A stretch of 64,000 bases of DNA from Lachnospiraceae bacterium AB2028 (GTDB lineage Bacteria > Bacillota > Clostridia > Lachnospirales > Lachnospiraceae), in NCBI GenBank assembly GCA_000621425.1, contig KK211276.1, forward strand, positions 62,001 to 126,000, written 5' to 3'. The notes beneath the pieces are model-generated. The model had not been told where the DNA came from and did no database searches. It saw nothing but the letters and a program-made list of their open reading frames with translations. The position numbers and the translations under genes are program-made. Of the stretch, positions 4,345 to 18,669 are shown piece after piece. Each line of letters begins with the position of its first letter. Within the stretch, counting starts at the first letter, position 1.

Positions 4345-6783
4345 TCAGAAATCCCTTTCCGATGACCTGGTCATAAGGCCATATTTTGCTTTTAGGTCAT
4401 CATCCGGTTCATATCCATCAAGCATCTCATCCGCGATCTTAATTACTTCATCATAGGAAACATAGGGCATACTGAAATAATCCAATGCCGCACCTTGAAC
4501 AATGAATCTGCCGTCCTGTTCACCTGCTATATGCGGCATTGTTGCATAAACCTGAAAATCATCATTAAGCAGATATGAATTGAGATATGTATCAAGATAA
4601 TAACCGCCTGAAATCTCACTGTAATATAATCCGGAATAGTACTGTGCGTTCGACGGCCAGGCAGCGATCAAACTATTACTTTCAACATCTATTAGCTGCA
4701 CAGTTCTGTTTGAATTGCAGACAAAAATATACTTTCCGTCATCCGAATAAAATGAATCATAGACTAATTCAGCTGTTATCCCATCCACATCCAAGTCATC
4801 CACAGAAACCGGAACTATATTCCGCTCTTCATCAGTATACTCCGGTAACAAAACAGCATTCTCATTTTCTTCAACTCTAAACGCCACGACATAGTTAGCA
4901 AACATTGAATGGTAGTATAGTCCCCCATTGCTCCAGACCACATTGCTGTTTAGTTCTGATTCATTGTACATCGCATAGTAATAATCCGAGACATCATAAC
5001 AGTCATTGTCAGAAATATAGGAATAAACAGTTCCATCCACTGTTATGAAAAAGAATGAATCGTTTTCATACCACCCCTGTGCTATAAAGTCATTTGCCGA
5101 GCAGTGTCCAATAGGCTCACCGTTACTTTTATCGATATTGTATATCGTATTAAATTCAATAAGGTATATATTATCCCCGCCTGCCACAAAGCTTTCCGCA
5201 CAGAAATCCGTCATTTTTTTGTTCCATAACTCATTACCGCTTTCAATATCTAATGCCCGGATAACAGTTTCTTCATAGTAATCTTCCTCGTAATACTCTG
5301 CAGCTGAAATATACAGGGTATTTCCATCCGGAAAAGCATATACATATTTGTCCCCCTCTTCCTCATATGTCCAGCAGATTTCTCCGGTATATTCATCCGC
5401 CACGATAATATAATAAGCAGAGTCATCTGAAAAATTTAAACATAATCTTCCCGAATCAGCGCACAGATCGTACCTTGTGATCAATCCGTAATCAAACACG
5501 TCTTCTAAGCTGATTCGATACGCTATATTCCCTTCACCGTCAATTCCTACCAGCTCCTTATCGCACAAAACAAATGCCATATCCGCATCTGTCGACTGGA
5601 AACATTCTTCAATACGTTGAACACCTTCTAAAAGCTTACCCTCTTCTTCATAAAGGGTATAATAGTACGCATCCATTTCATCAAGAACCAGTATTCCTTT
5701 TTCACCGCAAAATGCAGCGCTAAAAAATCCGTTTCCGCTCCTACTGATTTCCTTTATCATTTCACCGCTTTGAACATCAAACACATATAGCCCCAGCGTG
5801 TCAATAACCCAAAGATAGCTTCCATCAGCAGAAAGACCATAGTCTAAAACTATCGATCTTGTATCATATGTCTTCACCGGAAAATGACGTTCACCTGTTC
5901 CGTAAACACCAAGAATTGTTGTAAGACAGTTTAAGACATCCGCGTTATATCCATTGCTCTCATCATCAGGAAGAACGCTTCTCAATGCGTATATGGCATC
6001 CATACGCCTGCCTTCTCCCATCAGTTCTTCAGCCACAGATACCATGTTACCGGCATAAAGCTGCTCAAGTTCATCGTACTGTTCTTCGATAAGGACATTT
6101 TTCCGGCCTATCATCACAAGCGTAACGGTTGCAAAAACGGCAAAAACCAGAATAGCAAGGCTTATACCCCCTACAGTGAAGGTCATCTTCCTGACCCTTG
6201 CCTCATGATGCCGTTGCTTTAAGTCATCATAATTTAGTCCCAGTATTGCCGCGCATAGCTTTATTACCGCAGTATCAATCGCCTTTGCTATCTCTTTTTT
6301 ATCTGCGCCACGTGTGTCCGCCGCTAAGGGCTCCTTCTCCCTGCGCTCCGTAATGATACTTCCCGTTTCATCCGTCAGTTTAACATCTTCAAACCTTAAT
6401 ATTTCAGGAAAGGACTCGTCAGGCTCCCCATCCGCAAGAACAAGCAGTACATGGTCCCTGTCGTGATTCTGAAGAAACACTTCCAGCTCCTTCATGCACC
6501 ATTTTGATTCAATATACCTGGGCGTACAGACCGCAATAAAAAAGTCAGAATTGTTCAGGGCCTTCGTAATGGACTCGGAGAGATCATCCGACAGCGGAAG
6601 TTCTTCCACATCACGAAAAACCCTTGCAATTCCTTTTTTTCCGTTATTAAATTTATTTTTTATCGTTTTGGGGATTTTGAAACTTTCAAGTTTTTTATGC
6701 AGCTTTCCTGCCACAAAATCATCCAGTTCCGAGTGCCTATAACTGATAAATGCATCATAATGCACATTTTTCAATGTTTCCAT
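4345..6783 (-). CDS. TIR domain - transmembrane - beta-propeller protein
   Basis: The 812-residue protein has an N-terminal TIR domain (about 1-185; YDAFISYRHSE at 9-19, SKWCMKELE at 93-101 with Glu99 at the place of the NADase glutamate), a basic stretch, one membrane segment (about 201-226), a short helical linker, then about 500 residues of PQQ/WD-like repeats rich in Tyr, Asp and Gly (for example SADGSYLWVIDTLGLYVFDV, VQLIDVESNSLIAAWP). Positive charges before the membrane segment place the TIR inside and the propeller outside. TIR domains in bacteria often cleave NAD or make cyclic ADP-ribose signals; whether this one does is inference. It could be a surface sensor rather than a phage-defence effector. 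It has its own extended -10 promoter. Confidence 0.85.
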   Translation of the reverse strand: METLKNVHYDAFISYRHSELDDFVAGKLHKKLESFKIPKTIKNKFNNGKKGIARVFRDVEELPLSDDLSESITKALNNSDFFIAVCTPRYIESKWCMKELEVFLQNHDRDHVLLVLADGEPDESFPEILRFEDVKLTDETGSIITERREKEPLAADTRGADKKEIAKAIDTAVIKLCAAILGLNYDDLKQRHHEARVRKMTFTVGGISLAILVFAVFATVTLVMIGRKNVLIEEQYDELEQLYAGNMVSVAEELMGEGRRMDAIYALRSVLPDDESNGYNADVLNCLTTILGVYGTGERHFPVKTYDTRSIVLDYGLSADGSYLWVIDTLGLYVFDVQSGEMIKEISRSGNGFFSAAFCGEKGILVLDEMDAYYYTLYEEEGKLLEGVQRIEECFQSTDADMAFVLCDKELVGIDGEGNIAYRISLEDVFDYGLITRYDLCADSGRLCLNFSDDSAYYIIVADEYTGEICWTYEEEGDKYVYAFPDGNTLYISAAEYYEEDYYEETVIRALDIESGNELWNKKMTDFCAESFVAGGDNIYLIEFNTIYNIDKSNGEPIGHCSANDFIAQGWYENDSFFFITVDGTVYSYISDNDCYDVSDYYYAMYNESELNSNVVWSNGGLYYHSMFANYVVAFRVEENENAVLLPEYTDEERNIVPVSVDDLDVDGITAELVYDSFYSDDGKYIFVCNSNRTVQLIDVESNSLIAAWPSNAQYYSGLYYSEISGGYYLDTYLNSYLLNDDFQVYATMPHIAGEQDGRFIVQGAALDYFSMPYVSYDEVIKIADEMLDGYEPDDDLKAKYGLMTRSSERDF

Positions 6784-9925: not shown

Positions 9926-10190
9926 CCATAAGGCACAGTGGGAGCTTGCTCACACAGGTGCCCTTATGGGGGGCAGAAACATAGCGCGACAGCGCGACAT
10001 GAGCATGTAGCGCAGCGAAATGCGAATGGGCACCGCAATTAAAAAAAGATATTTCCATAAGGCACAGTGGGAGCTTGCTCACACAGGTGCCCTTATGGGG
10101 GCAGAAACATAGCGCGACAGCGCGACATGAGCATGTAGCGCAGCGGAATGCGAATGGGCACCGCAATTAAAAAAAGATATTTCCATAAGA
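9926..10190. repeat. Tandem 129-bp palindromic repeat, two copies and a partial third
   Basis: Copy 1 starts at 9926 and copy 2 at 10055; the first bases of a third copy start at 10183. The copies differ at very few positions. Each contains a long inverted repeat around GAGCTTGCTC: CCATAAGGCAC pairs with GTGCCCTTATGG, and in copy 1 the pairing continues outward through GTTTCTGCCCC / GGGGCAGAAAC. The second half holds the short repeated string GCGCGACA. The whole 9887-10296 gap has no credible gene. This looks like a dispersed palindromic element; its genome copy number cannot be seen here. Confidence 0.75.
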
Positions 10191-10216
10191 CATGGGGGAT
10201 ATCCCCTTATGAATAG

Positions 10217-10254
10217 AATCTGGCAGATCAAGTGTATTGATCATCCGCCAGATT
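10217..10254. repeat. Two-part hairpin downstream of the 10.3 kb gene
   Basis: AATCTGGC (10217-10224) pairs with GCCAGATT (10247-10254), and inside it GATCAA (10226-10231) pairs with TTGATC (10237-10242). It lies beyond the 3' end of the minus-strand gene at 10297 and lacks a T-run, so it is not a standard intrinsic terminator. Confidence 0.45.
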
Positions 10255-10296
10255 AGATGTGTAAACGCCGAATGACCGTAGGGCAGATCCTGCCAG

Positions 10297-11340
10297 TCAG
10301 TTTCCTTCTAAAAGATCTGTTTTTATCCCGGATATCGCTTCCATGATCGATAGATTATTTTTGAGCATACCATATATATATGGTGCCAGCCTGTCTAACA
10401 ATTCCGGACAGTATGCAGTAATATAGTCATGAGTCTCATAGCGCGCCATTTTCCAGAAATCATAATTGATCATCGTAGTAATGGAAATATCGAAGCCCTC
10501 GTCTTCCGTAAGATATATGCGGGGTGTATGAAGTATTGAAGAATCGAACATTCTGTTACCGCCATCGGAGCATTCCATAAATACACGTGCATTGATGAAA
10601 TTGAGCAGCCTTAACAGTTCGTTCCTGCACCCACTCTTTTTACAGATATCAGCACCGATGGAATTATAATACACCCTCGCCTCAGCTGCTTTGTCAAAGA
10701 ACCATATGCATCCTTCAACAAATCCGCCCGGAGCATTATCACACATGAATACAAAAGTGAATCTCTTTGCTCCCATATCAACATCTTCCTTATAAGGTAT
10801 GTTAAATGACCTAAGGTAATCCTTAAAATCCCTCGCCATGGCAGCGGCTTTCCTGCCTCTTTTCACAAACTCCCTGCGTACCGGAACCGTATAATCGTTA
10901 ACAGGGATCATCGGTCCCTGTTCATCATCACACGATTTTTCCTGTTCAAATACAACATTTTCCATATCACTTACATCGGCAATCCTTAGATTATTTCTCT
11001 TCAAAAGTTCATTAGAACTTACAGCCGGATTATGAAGTGCATTTATCTTAATCCTGCAGGAATATCTTTTAGTCTTTCCGTTCTCTATATCCTTTAAGAC
11101 AAGTTCTACCCATTCGTTCTTGCAATCAGCTATTTCGACATCATCAATGACATCATAAATCACCCCGCCTTCGCCTAATGCAACCAGATCAAGATACATC
11201 AGTTTTTCCTTTTTTTCAGCAGTCTCAAGCATGTCTATCCACATATACCGCCTTTCCAGTCCCTCAAGCAGCTTGTAAAGTTCCCATATTGCATCACTTG
11301 TTATTTCTTCCGGTCTGCAGATTGCATCATTCATCTTCAT
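10297..11340 (-). CDS. Hypothetical protein (347 aa)
   Basis: Not recognised. The protein is soluble, with no signal or membrane segment. The N-terminal half has a small beta-rich region (LMYLDLVALGEGGVIYDVIDD) and a charged linker; the C-terminal half (about 160-345) reads as alternating helices and strands (KRFTFVFMCD, VYYNSIGADICKKSG, DISITTMINYDFW). From the predicted fold alone it might be a YbjN-like chaperone fold, but this is weak. The ATG at 11340 is chosen because AGGAGG lies 8 bases upstream; an in-frame ATG two codons earlier is too close to that site. It is the last gene of the minus-strand accessory run. Confidence 0.75.
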   Translation of the reverse strand: MKMNDAICRPEEITSDAIWELYKLLEGLERRYMWIDMLETAEKKEKLMYLDLVALGEGGVIYDVIDDVEIADCKNEWVELVLKDIENGKTKRYSCRIKINALHNPAVSSNELLKRNNLRIADVSDMENVVFEQEKSCDDEQGPMIPVNDYTVPVRREFVKRGRKAAAMARDFKDYLRSFNIPYKEDVDMGAKRFTFVFMCDNAPGGFVEGCIWFFDKAAEARVYYNSIGADICKKSGCRNELLRLLNFINARVFMECSDGGNRMFDSSILHTPRIYLTEDEGFDISITTMINYDFWKMARYETHDYITAYCPELLDRLAPYIYGMLKNNLSIMEAISGIKTDLLEGN

Positions 11341-11370
11341 AAGCATTTCCTCCTTTTCTATGATCGTCGT

Positions 11371-11691
11371 TTAGTTCGTTATCTCTTCTTCTATCTCACG
11401 CAGAATAGAAAAGTATGTTTTGCCTCTCCCACGCTTTTGTAAAAAAGTATCTTTATAATCTTCTCTTACATAAGCATAAGTACACAGCGGATAACCATTT
11501 GAGTTGCAATCGAAGTCATATATACCAAATAACCGGTAAATTTCCCACTTCTTCGCTTCCGTATCAACCGGAATACGCCTTCCGTCTTCCATCAAAGCCA
11601 TTCCATTTTTTAATTCGGTGTAATAATGCATGTTATTATCAGGGTGCACCTCTTCCCTGGTTACCAGCATAATGTATGGATTCGTTTTCAT
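11371..11691 (-). CDS. Hypothetical protein (106 aa)
   Basis: Not recognised. A small soluble protein with many Tyr, Glu and Lys (MHYYTELKNGMALMEDGRRIPVDTEA) that looks like one alpha/beta domain. AGGAGG lies 9 bases before the ATG. It sits 30 bases before the next gene and 32 bases after the previous one, so it is probably co-transcribed with both. Size and company would fit an immunity-type or accessory protein, but nothing in the sequence proves it. Confidence 0.7.
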   Translation of the reverse strand: MKTNPYIMLVTREEVHPDNNMHYYTELKNGMALMEDGRRIPVDTEAKKWEIYRLFGIYDFDCNSNGYPLCTYAYVREDYKDTFLQKRGRGKTYFSILREIEEEITN

Positions 11692-11723
11692 AAGACATTA
11701 CCTCCTTTATGAATAATATTTTG

Positions 11724-12533
11724 CTACATTGATTCCGATAATATTTTTTCTACAATATCCGACAAAAAACCGTATTCAGCCCCCAGCGGATATATCTCCT
11801 TTTCAAGATATTCTTCCATTTCGTCCGGATCCACCTCATTCGACTGGTTAAGCTTATCAGCAAGCTTGTTGTAATGTTCGGCTGCCTCTTTATCATAGAT
11901 TTCATAGCCGAATCCGTTTAATGCACCATATTCCCAGTATGAAGCCGGTATTTTTGTTCTATCCTGTAAAATGAACCTAAAGAAAGCATCTGCTATTTTA
12001 TCCGCAAGATTTTCATCTAAAATATCATCTGCTGTAACCCATTTCTTATTTGCGAGTAAATCCGAATCAACATCCTCACAAAACTCCAACGGTGAAAACC
12101 ACTTATAACTGCCAAACACCAAAACCGTTGAATTCTTATCGCTGAGAAAATATGTATAAGGTGTTTCCCTATCTGTGTCACTCAGTATTACATTGGGAGA
12201 GTTTAACTGACTTTTATTTTTCACAAAGTCTTTTACAAACATCACCTTTCCAATCTGTGTGTGACAGTTTCCTGTGTACTCATCAATCTCACTGTGGAAA
12301 AAATTAATATTGTACTCCCTGTCTTTATAGCGACAGGCAATCCACATATACATTCTGCGATCGTTACATTCACTTTCTATACCCCGTCCGCCTCTGACTT
12401 TGATTTCAAGAGGCTCCAGCTCAGGTCTTCCCTCCTTTCTCTTTGTAAGTGCAGATATCATTATCCTTCTTGCATCACTTAATAACTCAACCTGCATTTC
12501 TGTGATTTCGCTAAGTGTCATGTTCTTTCTCAT
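11724..12533 (-). CDS. Hypothetical protein (269 aa)
   Basis: Not recognised. Soluble and acidic, with a Trp-containing beta region (RMYMWIACRYKDREYNINFF), a central segment (TVLVFGSYKWFSPLEF) and a helical C-terminus ending in a DPDEMEEYLEKEIYPLGAEYGF stretch. AGGAGG lies 8 bases before the ATG. The gene is preceded by the island's dyad-N9-CATAATAT element and by a terminator hairpin lying between that element and the ribosome binding site, so expression may be controlled by read-through. Confidence 0.75.
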   Translation of the reverse strand: MRKNMTLSEITEMQVELLSDARRIMISALTKRKEGRPELEPLEIKVRGGRGIESECNDRRMYMWIACRYKDREYNINFFHSEIDEYTGNCHTQIGKVMFVKDFVKNKSQLNSPNVILSDTDRETPYTYFLSDKNSTVLVFGSYKWFSPLEFCEDVDSDLLANKKWVTADDILDENLADKIADAFFRFILQDRTKIPASYWEYGALNGFGYEIYDKEAAEHYNKLADKLNQSNEVDPDEMEEYLEKEIYPLGAEYGFLSDIVEKILSESM

Positions 12534-12575
12534 TGATTTGTCCTCCTTTTTAAGACATAAATAAAATTGTTAACT

Positions 12576-12600
12576 AAAAAAGGACTGCTTATCGCAATCC
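12576..12600 (-). terminator. Intrinsic terminator or attenuator before the 269-aa gene
   Basis: On the minus strand GGATTGC, loop GATAA, GCAGTCC (7 pairs, one G-U), then TTTTTT. It lies only about 15 bases downstream of the CATAATAT element, so a transcript starting there would end after roughly 35 bases unless read through. Confidence 0.65.
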
Positions 12601-12610
12601 GGTTTCATAT

Positions 12611-12648
12611 ATATTATGCTAATACCCATCTTCAAGATTTTGAGGATA
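12611..12648 (-). promoter_or_regulatory. Island element copy A: dyad - N9 - CATAATAT
   Basis: Minus strand: dyad TATCCTCAAAATCTTGAAGA (within 12648-12628), 9 bases, CATAATAT (12618-12611). The stop codon of the upstream 289-aa gene lies inside the dyad. Copies B and C have the same 9-base spacing. It reads as an operator or activator site over the -35 region followed by a -10 hexamer CATAAT. Confidence 0.6.
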
Positions 12649-13501
12649 TGCTGTAAGAAGTTAACGACCAGTCAAAACAGTATTCATACCAAAGACCATA
12701 CCTCTCAAAAATGTCTGAAAATTCTTCTTTTATATGACCGGCAACCTCAGGAAGATAAATAGCACCACAATCTCTTATAAATTCTTTCTTTGAATCTTCT
12801 ACAATTGACTCCCATATTGGCTTTATTTCTTCAATATCCATATTTTCGAAGTTTTCATATTCTTCGATATAACGGGCATAGGTATCATATAATTCGTTAA
12901 GAGGTGTTAACTTTGCTTCATCATTTCCCTCTGCTTCCGAAAGTCCATTAATCTCTAAATATTCTTCCCATGTATCGAATACAAGCGGATCCCACCCGGA
13001 ATATATGCATTCCTCTCTATCTTTTTCGCTATATTCCATAAAACTCATATTTTTTACATTGTCGTAAAATTCCTGCAAACTGCTTGCCCCGAACTTATCA
13101 AGAAGATAATCCGTTAACAAATCAGTATGTTCAAAAATGTAATCCCAGCCATCAAGGCTTATATCTCTTTGGTTTGGCTCATAATCGCCATAACGAAGAA
13201 GAAGAGATAGGGAGCCTTCATAAACCATGTCAAAGATATGCTCAGGATTGGCAAATGACTTCCAAATTAGTTTTCCATTCTCGTCCTTTTGACTTGCAAT
13301 CCCTTTCATGGTCTCCTCCGGATCAACATCCTGTTCAAAGGACACATTAGGAATCCCCTTATATTTCTTTTCATTGTCCGATGAATATGAATACCTGTTG
13401 CCATTTGTGAAGATTGAAACATCCCTCCACAGTCCCCACTTTTGAAGGAATTTAATCATCTCAAGTGACATTTTTTCCATTTGTTCTTTTTTCTTTTTCA
13501 T
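12632..13501 (-). CDS. Hypothetical protein (289 aa)
   Basis: Not recognised. A soluble, strongly acidic protein (many Asp, Glu, Tyr, Trp) beginning with a short Lys/Glu-rich helix (MKKKKEQMEKMSLEMIKFLQKW). Conserved-looking aromatic pieces are GLWRDVSIFTNGNRYSY, ISLDGWDYIFEHTDLLTDYLL and RYGLWYEYCFDWSLTS. A GGAGG site lies 7 bases before the ATG. It follows copy B of the island element and a terminator hairpin, and its own 3' end overlaps copy A (it ends Ile-Ser-Ser-Lys-Ser). The neighbouring 267-aa gene ends in a similar way inside copy C. Confidence 0.75.
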   Translation of the reverse strand: MKKKKEQMEKMSLEMIKFLQKWGLWRDVSIFTNGNRYSYSSDNEKKYKGIPNVSFEQDVDPEETMKGIASQKDENGKLIWKSFANPEHIFDMVYEGSLSLLLRYGDYEPNQRDISLDGWDYIFEHTDLLTDYLLDKFGASSLQEFYDNVKNMSFMEYSEKDREECIYSGWDPLVFDTWEEYLEINGLSEAEGNDEAKLTPLNELYDTYARYIEEYENFENMDIEEIKPIWESIVEDSKKEFIRDCGAIYLPEVAGHIKEEFSDIFERYGLWYEYCFDWSLTSYSISSKS

Positions 13502-13534
13502 GTTGATACCTCCGTGCAGATTATTTTTGCAACT

Positions 13535-13562
13535 AAAAAAAGAACTGCCGGGGTGACAATTC
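13535..13562 (-). terminator. Intrinsic terminator or attenuator before the 289-aa gene
   Basis: On the minus strand GAATTGTC, loop ACCCC, GGCAGTTC (8 pairs with two G-U), then TTTTTTT. Like the hairpin at 12576-12600, it lies between an island element and a ribosome binding site; both end in the shared string CTTTTTTTAGTT or nearly so. Confidence 0.65.
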
Positions 13563-13604
13563 TTTTCATCACAGACTCGAAAATCATTTCATAATTTTCT
13601 CGTT

Positions 13605-13637
13605 GAATAGAAACCATCTTACCGAAGGTTTCTATTC
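13605..13637 (-). promoter_or_regulatory. Leader hairpin after island element copy B
   Basis: GAATAGAAACC (13605-13615) pairs perfectly with GGTTTCTATTC (13627-13637) across an 11-base loop. It begins directly after the CATAATAT of copy B and has no T-run, so it looks like a leader structure rather than a terminator. Confidence 0.5.
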
Positions 13638-13675
13638 ATATTATGTATTTTTTCATCTTCAGGATTTTGAGGATA
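13638..13675 (-). promoter_or_regulatory. Island element copy B: dyad - N9 - CATAATAT
   Basis: Minus strand: TATCCTCAAAATCCTGAAGA (within 13675-13655), 9 bases, CATAATAT (13645-13638). It lies 38 bases after the stop of the 88-aa gene and 137 bases before the start of the 289-aa gene. Confidence 0.6.
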
Positions 13676-13712
13676 AATAACGGTATTATGGTTCAAACAG
13701 ATTATTTTCTCG

Positions 13713-13979
13713 TTATTTGAAAACAACGATTTTAATTTTATCATCTATATTGGTATATAAACCTTCTTTTGTATCCGGTAAAATCCCTCTATTTTTAAGG
13801 AAAATAGAAATTGTATTAAAATCAAATACAAAGCCCCTGTCAGGATAGGTAAATATATCCGATATATTTTTGATATCTCTATTCGGCTGTACTTCGATAT
13901 CGACCACTTTTTTGTCATAATCGATATATAGCCCTGAGAATATATTCATTCCATTAAAAATTTCAATATACATATGCAC
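13713..13979 (-). CDS. Hypothetical protein (88 aa)
   Basis: Not recognised. A small soluble beta-rich protein (FNGMNIFSGLYIDYDKKVVDIEV, then RGFVFDFNTISIFLKNRG and IDDKIKIVVFK). Base composition is clearly more A+T-rich than in the housekeeping genes of the window. The ribosome binding site is weak (GAGAAAG), and ATG codons at 13979 and 13973 are both possible. It lies between the HAD gene and island element B. Small size and fold type would suit an immunity-like protein; this is a guess. Confidence 0.6.
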   Translation of the reverse strand: MHMYIEIFNGMNIFSGLYIDYDKKVVDIEVQPNRDIKNISDIFTYPDRGFVFDFNTISIFLKNRGILPDTKEGLYTNIDDKIKIVVFK

Positions 13980-14058
13980 ACTTTCTCAAATAATATTCCT
14001 TTGTATTTCTTTAAATTCATTAATAATCTTTTTCTTGTTTCTTTCAACTATATTTTTT

Positions 14059-14565
14059 CTACAGAATATTTTTATCCATAAGCGTGTTTCTTGTAGCATC
14101 TATACTTTTGTGGTGGATTCCTGTTCCGCCATACATTTTCCAATCTTCAATATTGGATTCCAGATCATCTATGAGAATGCAATCTGCTCCGGTGCAGAAG
14201 TTTTTCTTTTCTTCCCGGTATACTATATTAACCTTTAGATTCGGGGGCAGTATACGATGTGCCCACGCAATCTTATCTTCACCGGCAGTGTTAATCCCTC
14301 TCTTTGGTTTCGGGATTCCAGTGAGGATTTCGCACTTATCTCCGTATTTCTCATATAATTCATGGAAAAGTTCCACTGCTCCCGGCATAGGCTCAAGCTT
14401 ATCATAGAAATGACCGACCCGGCGTATTCTCTCCCACATCAGGTCATCTTCTTCCTTGGAGCGCCTTTCGCCCGGCTTAAGAAGTGGCATTCCACACAAT
14501 TTGCTGACACCACCGTCAAAATCCGCAAGCACACCATCCATGTCAAAATAAATCTTTTTAATCAT
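14059..14565 (-). CDS. HAD-superfamily 5'(3')-nucleotidase-like protein
   Basis: Predicted phosphatase on nucleotides or similar substrates. The 168-residue protein has the HAD motif I FDMDGVLADFDGG (nucleophile Asp8, Asp10), motif II in CEILTGIPKP, and the acidic motif IV ILIDDLESNIEDW, as in the NT5C-type 5'-nucleotidases. An AGGAGG site lies 8 bases before the ATG. Island element copy C lies directly upstream with a 39-base leader and no terminator. The enzyme's place among unknown accessory genes suggests a role in nucleotide handling for that system, but no substrate can be named. Confidence 0.82.
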   Translation of the reverse strand: MIKKIYFDMDGVLADFDGGVSKLCGMPLLKPGERRSKEEDDLMWERIRRVGHFYDKLEPMPGAVELFHELYEKYGDKCEILTGIPKPKRGINTAGEDKIAWAHRILPPNLKVNIVYREEKKNFCTGADCILIDDLESNIEDWKMYGGTGIHHKSIDATRNTLMDKNIL

Positions 14566-14604
14566 AGGTCTTACCTCCTGAAAATGTGTTTTTCGGTTAC
14601 ACCT

Positions 14605-14642
14605 ATATTATGCAGGGAAGTATCCTCAAAATTTTGAGGATT
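14605..14642 (-). promoter_or_regulatory. Island element copy C: perfect dyad - N9 - CATAATAT
   Basis: The dyad ATCCTCAAAATTTTGAGGAT (14641-14622) is a perfect 20-bp palindrome. It is followed on the minus strand by 9 bases and CATAATAT (14612-14605). The stop codon of the 267-aa gene upstream lies in the dyad. Transcription would enter the HAD gene. Confidence 0.65.
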
Positions 14643-15429
14643 GAATATAATTATTTTTTATTTCTTTTAATTTTTCTTCTAAATCGTTTTCTTTTAATTC
14701 ATTTTTGTTTACAATTCTAATTCCCCGTTTTAAAATCGCATCAATCAACCAATCTATATCTTCCAACTTTGGATTTTCTGTTTTATTGATTATGTTTAGA
14801 TCTCCATCAACAAAATCTTGAAGATAATTCTGTTCAACATAATCTTGCCAAGTCCTATAGTAGCGCTGTTTATAAAGCCAATACCGCATAACTATTCTAT
14901 TTCCATTAGGGAAGTTCCTGGGGCCTAAAGTATTATTATTTTTATTATTTTTACTATTTTTAACTCTCTCTTTTAAATTAATTATATTATCATCATCAAT
15001 AGGCGATATAATTTGTTTTTTGTTCTCTAACCATATCTTTATTAGATTTAGTTTATAAAAATAATTGTCGCTTTTTCCTTTGGGTGATCCATAATTTGCT
15101 CCTTCAGGAATTGGAATTATATTTCCAATAGTGTGATGTACTTTCTGATAGGTATTTAGAACATTTTTATCAACATCTTTATATTCTAAAAAACTTGATG
15201 ATGTAAGAATATCACCAACTATATCTATTCCGTTCTTGCCATTACATTTAAGGTACGCTCCCGATCCTGTCATCTGTCTTCTTCGAGATTGATATTTTAT
15301 AAATTCATAATTATTTTTCCCAAAATAATTATAGTATGAATATATCGACTCTATTGCACAATCGGTTACATCATATTCTTTTACTACTTGTTCGTTATTA
15401 CGTATTTTTTCCCAAATATCTTTACACAT
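14626..15429 (-). CDS. Hypothetical protein (267 aa), A+T-rich
   Basis: Not recognised. The protein is very rich in Asn, Lys, Ile and Tyr (a run of Asn/Lys at about residues 156-166) and its gene is markedly more A+T-rich than its neighbours, which points to recent acquisition. Notable blocks are HHTIGNIIPIPEGANYG, KLNLIKIWLEN and MRYWLYKQRYYRTWQDYVEQN. The ATG overlaps the last 8 bases of the sigma-WYL regulator gene and has no ribosome binding site of its own, so it is probably translated by coupling. Its 3' end lies inside island element C. Confidence 0.75.
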   Translation of the reverse strand: MCKDIWEKIRNNEQVVKEYDVTDCAIESIYSYYNYFGKNNYEFIKYQSRRRQMTGSGAYLKCNGKNGIDIVGDILTSSSFLEYKDVDKNVLNTYQKVHHTIGNIIPIPEGANYGSPKGKSDNYFYKLNLIKIWLENKKQIISPIDDDNIINLKERVKNSKNNKNNNTLGPRNFPNGNRIVMRYWLYKQRYYRTWQDYVEQNYLQDFVDGDLNIINKTENPKLEDIDWLIDAILKRGIRIVNKNELKENDLEEKLKEIKNNYIQSSKF

Positions 15430-17155
15430 ATTTATTTTTTAAGATCTCAATTTCCTTTGAAATCTTCTCCCTTATCTCCTCATCCATAATCTCCACCTTG
15501 GTCCCATACTGCATAGCCCAGTGAACAATCATTGTGGGAGAGGTTCTTACTTTTAGAATATGATAAGTAACTTCATTGCCATCACCGTCTTTATCGGTAA
15601 GTTCCCGTACCTTCTCATAATTATCTCCGAACCAGTCATGGATAATAGTGTAGTCGGTATTTCTAATCTTGATCTCTATATTCTTAGGATTATCGTATGC
15701 CATATAAAGATGTTCCGACATGTATTTCTGCGGGTCCCAGGCGTAATTAAATACAGGAAGAGCTTCAACCCGAGTTAATTCTATCCTCACTTCTTTTCCG
15801 TTTTCATCTCTGACAATTTCAATATCGGACATCAGGTCAACGCGGTAATGCTTTACCCTTTCATCACCATTCTTAAATCCTATACAGTAATAATTGTCAT
15901 GGTATACCACAAGCCGGTACGGACTGAGAGTATGGATATAGTCTGTCGTCGGCACCAAGTTATTCTCTTCGTCATACCTGTTAAACCTGAATCTTACCTG
16001 ACACATATTATTTAAAGCATATTGCAGAATTTTGATATTATCCGCAAACTGACTTCTATCCTGTTTTTCACGACCGGTAAAACGCCCGTAAACTGCTTTT
16101 GTATTAAACCTTAATCCTGTTTCATCCCAAAACGGGGTCTTGTAATATATACTTGCCGTTGAAACAAGTTTCTTTATTAAGTCAGACTTTTCCTCATCCG
16201 AAATCATATCTGTAAAAGAGATCAACTGGATAAGCGTATCCAAAGACGGATTATCAAAAATATGAGAATATGAAAAATCAGTTATAGGCTTTGACTTAAC
16301 ACCCTTCCCTTTGTTGATCTTCTTATAAAGGGAGTCTTCATCATATCCGGAATACTTTACAAGATATTCACTGTCGTTTTCTTCCGTATGTGTCAGAGGA
16401 TCCACTGCCATGAGAAGTTCTTCTATGTCATTGGTGTATGTATTATGATCCGGATAAAGATCTATATGCCCCTTCTTTTCCGATAAGGTGCTGTCGTTAC
16501 TGTATTTTCCAAGTCTGTAATAATGCAGTGCTTTTTGCAGATCGGTCTTATTTAATGAATGATCTTCATCTGTAAGCATGCAGAGGACTTTAAGAATCTG
16601 AAGAACCCTTCTCGGCTGACTGAATGTTTCATGATTCTGCGGTTCCTCCAGCGTAATTCCCGGATAGGCCTGTTTAAACGGAATATTTGGACAGTCATCT
16701 ATTGAGACCGGTATGACTTCCGATGCGTTTTGCTCATTCGAACTGTACTTCGGTAAGTTGGTAATCCCCAGCCTGTTAAACTGTATTAAAAGCTCATGTA
16801 ATATTGAAAAATATACAGGTTTCCATGCATATGTAGTAAACTTTGCTCGTCCGGGTTTATAATTTTTTACCGTATCAAAAAAAGCCACAAATCCCGCCTG
16901 ATGTAAATCTTCCATGTCAGCAGGATCGATAGAATCCACACCATATTCATTTAAAATAGTTTTACATACACGGGTAATATAATCTTCAAAATTGGCACAA
17001 AGCTCATTCCATGCCTCATTATCGGCATTGTTGTCCTGAATTCTCTTTATCAGGTCATTTACCTTTTCATCCGGCAAATATTTTTCTTCAATATCTTCCG
17101 TTATTTCTCCCTCCGGAATTTCCGACTCCATGGAATCTTTTAATACTTCACTCAT
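15422..17155 (-). CDS. Sigma-70 region 2-like - HTH - WYL fusion regulator
   Basis: A 577-residue cytoplasmic regulator. Residues about 48-135 match sigma-70 region 2 into early region 3: DMEDLHQAGFVAFFDTVKNY, then KFTTYAWKPVYFSILHELL and RLGITNLPKY, in the same order as sigma-A (DLIQEGNIGL, KFSTYATWWIRQA, TIRIPVH). Residues about 181-215 look like the helix-turn-helix of WYL regulators (RRVLQILKVLCMLTDEDHS). Residues about 371-449 form a WYL domain (VRFRFNRYDEENN, SPYRLVVYHDNYYCIGF, VKHYRVDLM) and the end resembles a WCX extension. No sigma region 4 is visible. It is likely the regulator of the island; the dyad-CATAATAT elements are candidate targets. Translation of the next gene is probably coupled to it. 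Confidence 0.8.
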   Translation of the reverse strand: MSEVLKDSMESEIPEGEITEDIEEKYLPDEKVNDLIKRIQDNNADNEAWNELCANFEDYITRVCKTILNEYGVDSIDPADMEDLHQAGFVAFFDTVKNYKPGRAKFTTYAWKPVYFSILHELLIQFNRLGITNLPKYSSNEQNASEVIPVSIDDCPNIPFKQAYPGITLEEPQNHETFSQPRRVLQILKVLCMLTDEDHSLNKTDLQKALHYYRLGKYSNDSTLSEKKGHIDLYPDHNTYTNDIEELLMAVDPLTHTEENDSEYLVKYSGYDEDSLYKKINKGKGVKSKPITDFSYSHIFDNPSLDTLIQLISFTDMISDEEKSDLIKKLVSTASIYYKTPFWDETGLRFNTKAVYGRFTGREKQDRSQFADNIKILQYALNNMCQVRFRFNRYDEENNLVPTTDYIHTLSPYRLVVYHDNYYCIGFKNGDERVKHYRVDLMSDIEIVRDENGKEVRIELTRVEALPVFNYAWDPQKYMSEHLYMAYDNPKNIEIKIRNTDYTIIHDWFGDNYEKVRELTDKDGDGNEVTYHILKVRTSPTMIVHWAMQYGTKVEIMDEEIREKISKEIEILKNKYV

Positions 17156-17167
17156 ATTTTCCCCCTT

Positions 17168-17485
17168 TCATTCGGTCGGAAACACTTTTTTGCACTGATC
17201 CAGCTCTGCGCAGTCCTGGTCCGATACATATATTTCTTCAGCCTTACTCAGATCATTATCTAAAATACTTTCAGAACTGATCAGCTCTATGACACTTTCC
17301 ACATTCTTTGTATAGTCTTCCGTATCAAGCCATATTGCCATCCTGTCATCCGGAAGATAATCGAATCCGTTGTCCTTTGCCTGCCCATTCGTATACTCTT
17401 CTATGCGGTCCGGAAGGTCATAGCGTATATCTAAATCAGGATTGTCCATTTTTTCCGGGTCAAGAATAATAATTATCGTCTGCAT
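17168..17485 (-). CDS. Hypothetical protein (105 aa)
   Basis: Function unknown. The small acidic protein starts with a hydrophobic strand (MQTIIIILDPEKMDNPDLDI) followed by YDLPDRIEEYTNG and a C-terminal helix; it looks like a compact alpha/beta domain with no signal sequence. The ATG at 17485 is preferred because GGGGGG lies 6 bases upstream; an in-frame ATG at 17509 overlaps the stop of the previous gene and would add eight non-hydrophobic residues. It sits 12 bases before the sigma-WYL gene, so they are likely co-transcribed. Confidence 0.7.
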   Translation of the reverse strand: MQTIIIILDPEKMDNPDLDIRYDLPDRIEEYTNGQAKDNGFDYLPDDRMAIWLDTEDYTKNVESVIELISSESILDNDLSKAEEIYVSDQDCAELDQCKKVFPTE

Positions 17486-17508
17486 AAAAGCCCCCCTTTT
17501 CGGGATCA

Positions 17509-18669
17509 TCAGTCCCTTTTTTCTTCCACTTCCGATATCAGCTCACCGTAAAGCTTCTCGAATTCCTGCTGAAGTTCCTTAAGCAATTTATAATCTTTAT
17601 CAGAATACTTTTTATACTGCCCTATGGAATGCCGCTCCATTTTTTTACCGCCGGAAGCTGACTTATCAAATATAATGCCGTAGCCCCAGGGACTGTAGTC
17701 GGTAACGAACTCATCACTTTCTTTCCTGTTTTCCAGTGCAAGGATCTTCTTATCATTTAAGAACTGTTCAAAGGCAGCCAATGCACTATCTGAAACTGCA
17801 TAGGTTTTTACTATCTCCGGCTCATCAAGGCTGTTCCGGTCCCTTTTCTCTATCTGCCATGCTCCCGACTTATCCCGCCTTAAGCTCTCGCAGTGATAGC
17901 CGCCGTTCATATCGCTGTATCCCGGGCTATGATCAAAGCCGGTCAGTTCACCTGAAACTATGGCAGTTACTACGCTTTCAGTTTCCTCATCAGAAGTCTT
18001 GCACTGAAAGTGCTTTATAAGCCGGTCTATTCCCATAAGGATAAAACCGCCGACTGCAAAAATAACTGTCAGTGCCACGCACCACATCAGCACGCCGAGC
18101 TTTCCGGATTTATCCGGATCAAGGAAGAAATAGGGATAGATAAGCGGACCTGTTCCCTTACAGTTCATTATGGTGCCGTCAAAATGATGTAGCGCCGCAT
18201 GCACAAAAACATATGCAAGATATACAAATGGAAACAGCATTGCCCAGAAAGGATATGAAACCTTTACCTGTCCCTTAGGATAGAAAAGTATCCAGTCTAT
18301 GGTAAACATCAGGGGCAGTACAACATGCAGGAAGAAGCTTGACACTTTAAAATTATCAGCCGGATCCCTGTTCGCCGCATTTGCAAGAAGCAGATTAAAT
18401 ACAAAGAAAGTCAGAAGTATGCCCAGCACTCCGGAAAACTTAAGCAGGGGGCAGGCTGTAACATAGCTGTCCTCCTTCTTTTTGACAGTCTGATAAAGCT
18501 CCGCGAACATTATACCTACACATAAATAATTACTGAGATTGGTAAAAAGTATGTAGAAATCCCAGCGGAATGTCATATCGAAAAACCCTACGCTGGCAAC
18601 TATTCCCACAATACCTAAAGTACAGTATGCTGTCTGATACATAAGCTGCGCTGTACGGTTCTTTATCAT
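17509..18669 (-). CDS. Pr6Pr-like six-helix membrane protein with soluble C-terminus
   Basis: The 386-residue protein begins with about six membrane segments (residues 12-225) matching the Pr6Pr family: WDFYILFTNLSNYLCVGIMF, FSGVLGILLTFFVFNLLLA, SSFFLHVVLPLMFTIDWILF, and FPFVYLAYVFVHAALHHFDG. A C-terminal soluble part (about 240-386) contains a beta-rich segment and ends in a Lys/Glu helix; it is not part of the usual family core. The family has no settled biochemical role. It lies 30 bases after the BMP-family gene and overlaps or abuts the 105-aa gene, so it belongs to the signalling operon. Confidence 0.75.
   Translation of the reverse strand: MIKNRTAQLMYQTAYCTLGIVGIVASVGFFDMTFRWDFYILFTNLSNYLCVGIMFAELYQTVKKKEDSYVTACPLLKFSGVLGILLTFFVFNLLLANAANRDPADNFKVSSFFLHVVLPLMFTIDWILFYPKGQVKVSYPFWAMLFPFVYLAYVFVHAALHHFDGTIMNCKGTGPLIYPYFFLDPDKSGKLGVLMWCVALTVIFAVGGFILMGIDRLIKHFQCKTSDEETESVVTAIVSGELTGFDHSPGYSDMNGGYHCESLRRDKSGAWQIEKRDRNSLDEPEIVKTYAVSDSALAAFEQFLNDKKILALENRKESDEFVTDYSPWGYGIIFDKSASGGKKMERHSIGQYKKYSDKDYKLLKELQQEFEKLYGELISEVEEKRD

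Follow-up and report, generated by a model that had tools for sequence, protein, structure and literature searches.

Introduction

Sigma-70-type sigma factors usually select promoters by their regions 2 and 4 jointly. Among the WYL-domain regulators that come closest to the locus described here, the Caulobacter activator DriD uses a 20-bp pseudo-palindrome that overlaps the -35 region, is set at a constant distance from the -10 and goes with a poor -35 match (PMC12340889, preprint), and PafBC adapts SigA via a -26 motif that is read by the helix-turn-helix (HTH) of PafB, with PafC contacting SigA domain 4 (PMC11804915). A review on extracytoplasmic function (ECF) sigma factors does not mention WYL (PMC8999054), and the survey of WYL architectures in a PafBC paper omits classes of fewer than 100 sequences from its figure (PMC6789036). 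No description of a fusion of sigma-70 region 2 with WYL was found in the open-licence PMC literature, covered mostly as titles and abstract openings, which is not proof of novelty. Here we describe such a fusion, sigma-WYL, and a promoter-like element that accompanies it, in a stretch of 64,000 nucleotides from Lachnospiraceae bacterium AB2028 (GCA_000621425.1, contig KK211276.1, positions 62,001 to 126,000), which we call the window. A sequence-only reading of this DNA had noticed three copies of the element in an accessory island. The finding is real and is more interesting than first stated, being a sigma-WYL regulon with its own promoter: judged from sequence, the elements are likely the promoters of one local regulon that is read by the sigma-WYL protein of the island.

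The element in the window

The three elements lie on the minus strand at 12611-12647 (A), 13638-13674 (B) and 14605-14641 (C) and have the same length of 37 bases. The layout runs from a 20-bp dyad (12628-12647, 13655-13674 and 14622-14641, respectively) over nine bases to the -10 sequence CATAATAT (14605-14612 in C), followed after five or six bases by (A/T)AACC; transcription starts are predicted at about 12606, 13633 and 14600. The sequence-only reading had placed the three copies here with a spacing of exactly nine bases, and its lower ends are correct, but its upper ends ran one base too long. The dyads read ATCCTCAAAATCTTGAAGAT in A, ATCCTCAAAATCCTGAAGAT in B and ATCCTCAAAATTTTGAGGAT in C. 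It had rightly described C as a perfect palindrome, and the similar distance of the downstream word was also seen, with AAACC after 5 bases in A and after 6 in B, and TAACC after 5 in C.

Searched as CCTCAAAATNNTGANGAT-N9-CATAATAT with up to three mismatches, the pattern gave 3 matches in the window and none in 100 dinucleotide shuffles. The whole 3.48-Mb genome also holds only 3 matches at this threshold, all beside the sigma-WYL gene, with none for the reversed control and no further regulon members elsewhere. This genome search, extended to relatives, was the check that had been set beforehand, and in the relatives the pattern recurs before several unrelated gene families. The dyad alone is unremarkable: at up to three mismatches it has 16 matches in the window (three of them the same dyads read on the opposite strand) compared with an average of 8.87 in the shuffles, of which 5 in 100 reach 16. 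The rarity of the element therefore rests on the combination of dyad and spaced -10, not on the dyad.

A standard sigma-70 promoter scan lists no promoter at A, B or C. The genes that follow the elements (269 aa behind A, 289 aa behind B, and a HAD/NT5C protein of 168 aa behind C) have no common family by Pfam or clustering, so the claim that they are unrelated to each other holds. The stop codon of the 289-aa gene (12632-12634) lies inside dyad A and that of the 267-aa gene (14626-14628) inside dyad C, as had been reported. Known RNA families are absent from window positions 10200-17600 at E<=0.1.

Recurrence and orientation in relatives

A search of species genomes found 37 related loci, nearly all from Lachnospiraceae and other Clostridia, which with the window makes 38 sequences. 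The first weight matrix was tested on its own training data, with a shuffle control that permuted single bases, not dinucleotides, in 100-base blocks; it gave seven minus-strand matches in relatives (12.8-33.0 bits), six of which mirror real dyads and one of which (L012 4499, 14.2 bits) does not. The results to trust are those of a leave-one-locus-out (LOO) run, for which the matrix was rebuilt without the tested locus and a threshold of 20 bits applied, and of a clade-out run. The LOO run found the element in 31 of the 38 sequences, strong sequence support for the proposed tie to the sigma-WYL gene of the island. Above 20 bits there were 56 matches on the same strand as the sigma-WYL gene, compared with 0 on the opposite one; the 56 include one inside the 267-aa coding frame (23.3 bits), and 3 of the 56 lie upstream of the sigma-WYL gene. 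A, B and C scored 49.7, 35.2 and 51.1 bits. The clade-out matrix, trained on 42 main-clade sites, was applied to 10 divergent or two-gene loci that had been left out of the training. It recovered elements of at least 21.5 bits in 9 of them and reached only 11.0 bits in L037, with nothing above 10 bits on their minus strands.

The single orientation bears on the suggestion that the element serves for recombination or cassette exchange. In favour of this, unrelated genes follow the element, and one promoter-leader has different genes behind it in different strains (the 269-aa gene here, family F2 elsewhere). However, a count of 56 against 0, the fixed -10 spacing, the conservation at -1 and +1, the short leader with an ATG nearby and the occurrence beside sigma-WYL genes are features of a promoter. 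Viral contigs contain no sigma-WYL relative as judged with two peptide patterns, plasmids and phages have no match of 80% coverage or more, and recombinases are not among the 25 of 63 downstream families listed, no search having been aimed at recombinases or junctions. A recombination site is thus not supported, and we consider it very improbable.

Because the matrix is ungapped and hence assumes the spacing, dyad and -10 were also scanned separately, within 60 bases of each other. This gave 43 plus-strand pairs, all 43 at one gap, and a single overlapping pair on the minus strand. Repression does not need such a constraint, which counts against the idea that the dyad is an operator for a WYL repressor over a housekeeping promoter. 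BrxR, a WYL protein that represses by binding to inverted repeats close to defence-island promoters, offers a precedent (PMC9122601), but the three sites have no -35 hexamer and the protein has a sigma domain fused to it, so that this explanation is very unlikely.

In the same bacterial family, a full-length fusion was found in 2 of 299 genomes; two further genomes have relatives of the WYL part only, no profile search for a sigma gene having been made among their neighbours. A looser pattern, searched exactly, gave 4 matches in the 299 genomes, all in the two that carry the fusion (3 in G000 and 1 in G135).

Anatomy of the proposed promoter

The base frequencies were taken from a set of 55 elements, namely the plus-strand matches above 28 bits; minus-strand and weaker matches and the one in a coding frame (window ~14823, 32.4 bits) were left out. 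With CATAAT numbered -12 to -7 and the transcription start predicted, 54 sites have C at -12, 54 have T at -1 and 47 have G at +1. The -12 base is read in sigma-70 by Gln437 and Thr440, and changes there favour C. The residues aligned to region 2.4 of sigma-A (FSTYATWWIRQAIT) are LLTYATWYIDGEIS in L009, a typical fusion to which others are similar, and FTTYAWKPVYFSIL in the window protein. The dyad centre falls at -31.5. A -35 hexamer spaced by 17 bp would have its centre about one base from there, so that, with a predicted start, the arrangement is DriD-like: a palindrome of about 20 bp covers the -35 and keeps a constant distance to the -10. From predicted start to start codon there are 30-251 nt, with a median of 52 (n=50 of 55, those with a near gene). 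The fixed spacing, the start-site conservation and the constant orientation give strong sequence support to the reading of the element as a promoter with an activator or alternative sigma factor at the dyad, as had been suggested.

After removal of near-identical sites 45 of the 55 remained, and in these related, not independent, sites mirror positions of the dyad were complementary beyond column shuffles (p<0.05) at 5 of 10 pairs. The strongest pair, 2/13, was complementary in 43 of 45 sites where 36.7 were expected. Dyad variants track protein clades: L031 and L032 each have one element with TGCAAAATTTTGCA, and L033 has ATCTTAAACATGTTAAAGAT.

The upstream gene ends inside the dyad in 9 of the 55 cases and within 12 bp before it in another 25; the overlap of stop codons with the dyad is explained by tight gene packing. 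These 34 of 55 cases could also be taken to mean that the dyad is an RNA hairpin that ends or stabilises the upstream transcript. Against this, the window dyads lack a following T run, the -10 stays at a constant distance, and the conservation of the start region extends to sites whose upstream gene ends at a distance of 74 or 137 bp (L028 5868 and L017 9936). A hairpin function of the dyad therefore has a very low probability.

Some elements stand in front of the regulator. They occur upstream of the sigma-WYL or sigma gene at L028 5868 and 6454 and at L040 3732, in L028 with regulon-type genes between. Such elements would give positive autoregulation.

The sigma-WYL protein

The sigma-WYL gene (15422-17155, minus strand) encodes 577 residues with Pfam matches to Sigma70_r2 (2.1e-6) and WYL (1.2e-8). 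The order of domains is sigma-70 region 2 (71-112), a winged helix (~180-255), WYL (374-447) and a WCX-like C-terminus, and the succession of winged helix, WYL and WCX is that of the class of WYL transcription regulators with these three parts. WCX matches are below the Pfam cut-off in two relatives. Compared by hhalign with ordinary WYL regulators, the fusions align over residues 193-577, from winged helix to C-terminus (E 2.2e-19), and profile comparison with the separate sigma proteins of relatives aligns residues 55-136 only, which is region 2 alone. The first part of profile A1, built from 27 fusions, matches the solved sigma factors FliA and SigA, best FliA (positions 18-132, 1.3e-7). 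Region 2 is retained throughout the fusion alignment, and the Sigma70_r2 match is above cut-off in the window protein, below cut-off in L008, L028 and L031 and not listed for L038. Sigma70_r4 was not detected in the window protein at E up to 1 nor in four other fusions at E up to 0.1; of the sigma-70 hallmarks, the window protein thus shows region 2 but not the -35-reading region 4.

Among models of defence-system families only those of WYL match the window protein, and seven other island or regulon-type proteins (five from the window, two from relatives) match none. Two peptide patterns hit 11 stretches in viral contigs, none of which is a sigma-WYL relative by tblastn, and the element pattern has 0 matches in these contigs. 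In 5 plasmid records and 1 phage record WYL was matched in part, and no match in such records covers 80% of sigma-WYL. With these results a phage or plasmid origin was rejected.

In some relatives the two halves are separate. L033 (3275-4982), L035 (7914-9675), L037 (12-1909) and L040 (4022-5855) have a small sigma gene followed by a separate, overlapping or adjacent WYL gene of 403-420 residues. Region 2 was found in all four small sigma proteins, in three above the curated cut-off, and region 4 in three of the four, below cut-off; the second part of the small-sigma profile aligns weakly with SigA region 4. For the separate WYL proteins, the alignment with ordinary WYL regulators starts only at their residue 127 and does not include the winged helix. 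The element begins 26 nt (L033) and 35 nt (L035) behind the WYL gene; L040 has one before the sigma gene and another further downstream, and in L037 it is degenerate, with only the -10 and start half. A fifth locus, L034, is grouped here by its WYL gene and has only a region-4-like sigma remnant (~6109-6409), region 2 not being seen.

In a tree of the WYL part, the 30 fusions that were included all group in a single clade (100/99). Rooted on two WYL-only proteins with long branches, so that the root is uncertain, the separate forms are basal. This clade and the basal position of the separate forms suggest one fusion event with loss of region 4.

Proposed mechanism

What the sequences show is the element with its fixed geometry, the joint occurrence of element and sigma-WYL, the domain make-up of the protein and the two-gene form with the same promoter. 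Building on these, the likely mechanism is one in which the sigma-70 region 2 of sigma-WYL would bind core RNA polymerase and recognise the CATAAT -10 with its C at -12. A dimer of the winged helix would sit on the 20-bp palindrome at about -31.5, in place of region 4 on a -35 hexamer; dyad centre and first base of the -10 are a constant 19.5 bp apart. The WYL/WCX part would be the likely on-switch, probably responding to a nucleic-acid or nucleotide ligand by analogy with PafBC and DriD. Binding, dimerisation, the transcription start, the ligand and activation are what we infer, and the passage from co-occurrence to mechanism is a step of the same kind. In its full form, towards which we lean, the proposal is that of a one-component sigma factor that has lost region 4 and the promoters of which are read by a ligand-gated WYL dimer on a palindrome; it would have arisen by a single fusion of neighbouring two-region sigma and WYL genes, and would drive a small, strain-variable, phosphatase-rich gene set in which each unit has its own copy of the promoter.

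Alternatively, the housekeeping holoenzyme could read these promoters, with sigma-WYL bound at the dyad as a DriD- or PafBC-like activator and region 2 as a vestige or docking piece. DriD acts in this way with the housekeeping sigma, on its pseudo-palindrome over the -35 at a fixed -10 distance (PMC12340889). CATAAT agrees with the sigma-A -10 at 5 of 6 positions, and L034 has a WYL gene and an element with a sigma gene reduced to a region-4-like remnant. Sigma-A, however, prefers T at -12, where 54 of the 55 sites have C. Region 2 is moreover kept across the alignment of fusions and is also present in the two-gene sigma, and a plain activator needs none. We judge this alternative unlikely, and keep sigma-WYL as the sigma factor of these promoters as the preferred reading.

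Several observations weigh against that reading. Seven of the 38 sequences have no LOO match: the sequences of L015 and L020 stop at most two bases from the gene, in L016 and L037 the -10 and start region are intact next to a degenerate dyad, and L030, L039 and L044 show no trace of the element. The LOO procedure removes one locus only and leaves close relatives in training; the clade-out run is stricter and its scores are lower. L034 keeps an element downstream despite its sigma remnant, which the model leaves unexplained. None of the solved WYL chains was matched, profile A1 of the fusions finding sigma chains and one unrelated protein and profile A2 of the separate WYL proteins finding nothing. 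Only 21 of 86 left-side dyad deviations are compensated, a modest number, so the dyad symmetry is genuine without being strict. Protein distance correlates with the distance between dyads (Mantel r 0.59), but likewise with that between spacers (0.54) and between -10 sequences (0.37), and shared descent thus explains part of the correlation.

The same direction is taken by some of the results from the 299 genomes. At up to two mismatches the looser pattern gave at least 66 matches in 54 genomes, compared with 17 for the reversed control; of these 66, 20 were scored with the matrix, together with regions of G252, G041 and G135, and none of the 20 exceeded 17.3 bits, most being weak. The assemblies of G252 and G041 have good elements and no sigma-WYL was found in them. 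In G252 a 59-bit element lies in the first 100 bases of a contig, before genes that look, by eye, like the window's TetR and radical-SAM-like neighbours, and in G041 a 49-bit element on a contig of 3 kb is followed by a metallophosphoesterase-like frame. Given these positions, the two are exceptions or assembly gaps. Finally, a homologue of the 289-aa gene lies next to phosphatase-like genes in G086 (L092, a 9.4-kb contig), where neither an element nor a full-length fusion is present.

Content of the proposed regulon and neighbouring genes

The genes next after the 55 elements belong to a dozen families besides the sigma gene, with 7 unclustered. Most common are F2 (13), F4 (7) and F5 (7). Pfam families were tallied for proteins of at least 100 aa from our own open reading frame calls, 138 downstream (up to 5 per locus) and 102 upstream (up to 4 per locus); three upstream L028 proteins that stand behind elements were left out, so that 99 were covered. 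The 138 proteins behind sigma-WYL genes include Metallophos (24), Acetyltransf_1 (8), NT5C (7), DUF6994 (7) and AAA (4), and Metallophos is absent from the first 25 families listed for the upstream proteins, where the smallest count is 2.

All genes of the set in the window are on the minus strand. The gene behind element C (14059-14565) encodes the 168-aa HAD/NT5C-like phosphatase of family F4 (Pfam NT5C 6e-9), directly behind 7 of the 55 elements. Behind element B is the 289-aa protein of family F5 (12632-13501), of no known family, again directly behind 7 of 55 elements; homologues occur in 3 of the 299 genomes, two of them with sigma-WYL. The 269-aa protein behind element A (11724-12533), without a family, occupies the place of F2 in relatives. 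It is followed by a 106-aa gene (11371-11691) and a 349-aa gene of family F6 (10297-11346), a possible operon tail (10297-11691) of which element A would, by inference, also be the promoter. The 267-aa gene (14626-15429), with its stop codon in dyad C, overlaps the 3' end of the sigma-WYL gene.

Two leaders in the window have terminator-like hairpins on the minus strand. That of element A (12582-12600, about +7 to +25) ends in T6 and has near-identical words before F2 in relatives; that of element B (13541-13563, about +71 to +93) ends in T7 and has near-identical words before F5. Within 110 nt of the start, such a hairpin with T run was found in 15 of 55 leaders, compared with 0-2 in ten mononucleotide shuffles; upstream of other genes the same scan gave 31 of 371 stretches. 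The near-identical words are shared by the window, L008, L009, L010, L011, L013, L017, L027 and L029, and the leader hairpins of L018, L038, L042 and L043 have different words. Attenuation, or insulation from upstream read-through, is a possible role. In the window a promoter and leader of the F2 type precede the unrelated 269-aa gene, and since F2 follows them elsewhere, strains differ in which gene a conserved promoter-leader precedes; in this sense the exchange idea survives weakly.

In G008 (L070) a WYL-only regulator lies among genes that by eye resemble metallophosphoesterases, with no element and no full-length fusion. In G123 (L071) a WYL-only relative lies shortly downstream of cas9-, cas1- and cas2-like genes, and is followed by a metallophosphoesterase-like gene (all names assigned by eye). 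The gene types are not confined to control by sigma-WYL, and the phosphatase-rich set may be regulated in more than one way.

Elsewhere in the window, a 128-base unit is repeated 2.1 times with 98% identity at 9926-10189, between a TetR-like gene and the end of the island, and an 812-aa protein encoded at 4345-6783 (minus strand) has weak TIR-like matches that include ThsB models.

Comparison with known systems

If the proposed mechanism is true, the -35 half of promoter recognition would be swappable as a module, region 4 being replaced by a sensor-type DNA-binding dimer. Sigma-WYL would then also be a compact orthogonal switch with a defined promoter that combines sensing and promoter choice in one chain. 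With two-gene and fused forms sharing a promoter, the evolutionary step and the division of labour become directly testable, for which Eubacterium ruminantium FB3002 and Lachnospiraceae NC2008 and AD3010 are candidate cultured relatives, their culturability being deduced from the strain names.

SigO-RsoA is a two-subunit sigma factor of Bacillus subtilis, and its division of sigma functions over two genes is like that in the two-gene form. The partner here is a WYL regulator, however, and it is fused in most members. ECF41 retains sigma2-sigma4, CapW is a WYL-family repressor, and neither BrxR nor CapW is known to have a sigma domain. Sigma-WYL resembles ECF41, ECF56 and other extended ECF sigma factors in having a regulatory or sensory domain on the sigma chain (PMC8999054), but the ECF56 member SigG1 retains sigma2-sigma4 (PMC7730460). 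With BrxR and CapW it shares its place among WYL proteins of accessory or defence islands (PMC9122601, PMC9122588), and it differs from BrxR in that the latter is a repressor (PMC9122601).

The nearest parallels in promoter recognition are the WYL activators. Like sigma-WYL in the proposed mechanism, PafBC is a WYL regulator that replaces ordinary -35 recognition, but it does so at a -26 motif and not at a symmetric dyad centred at about -31.5 (PMC11804915). DriD is similar both in promoter geometry and in being a protein of the winged HTH-WYL type; activators of its kind form a dimer gated by ssDNA. It is, however, a separate protein that uses the housekeeping sigma-73 and sandwiches domain 4 of that factor (PMC12340889), whereas sigma-WYL has region 2 in its own chain and no detected region 4.

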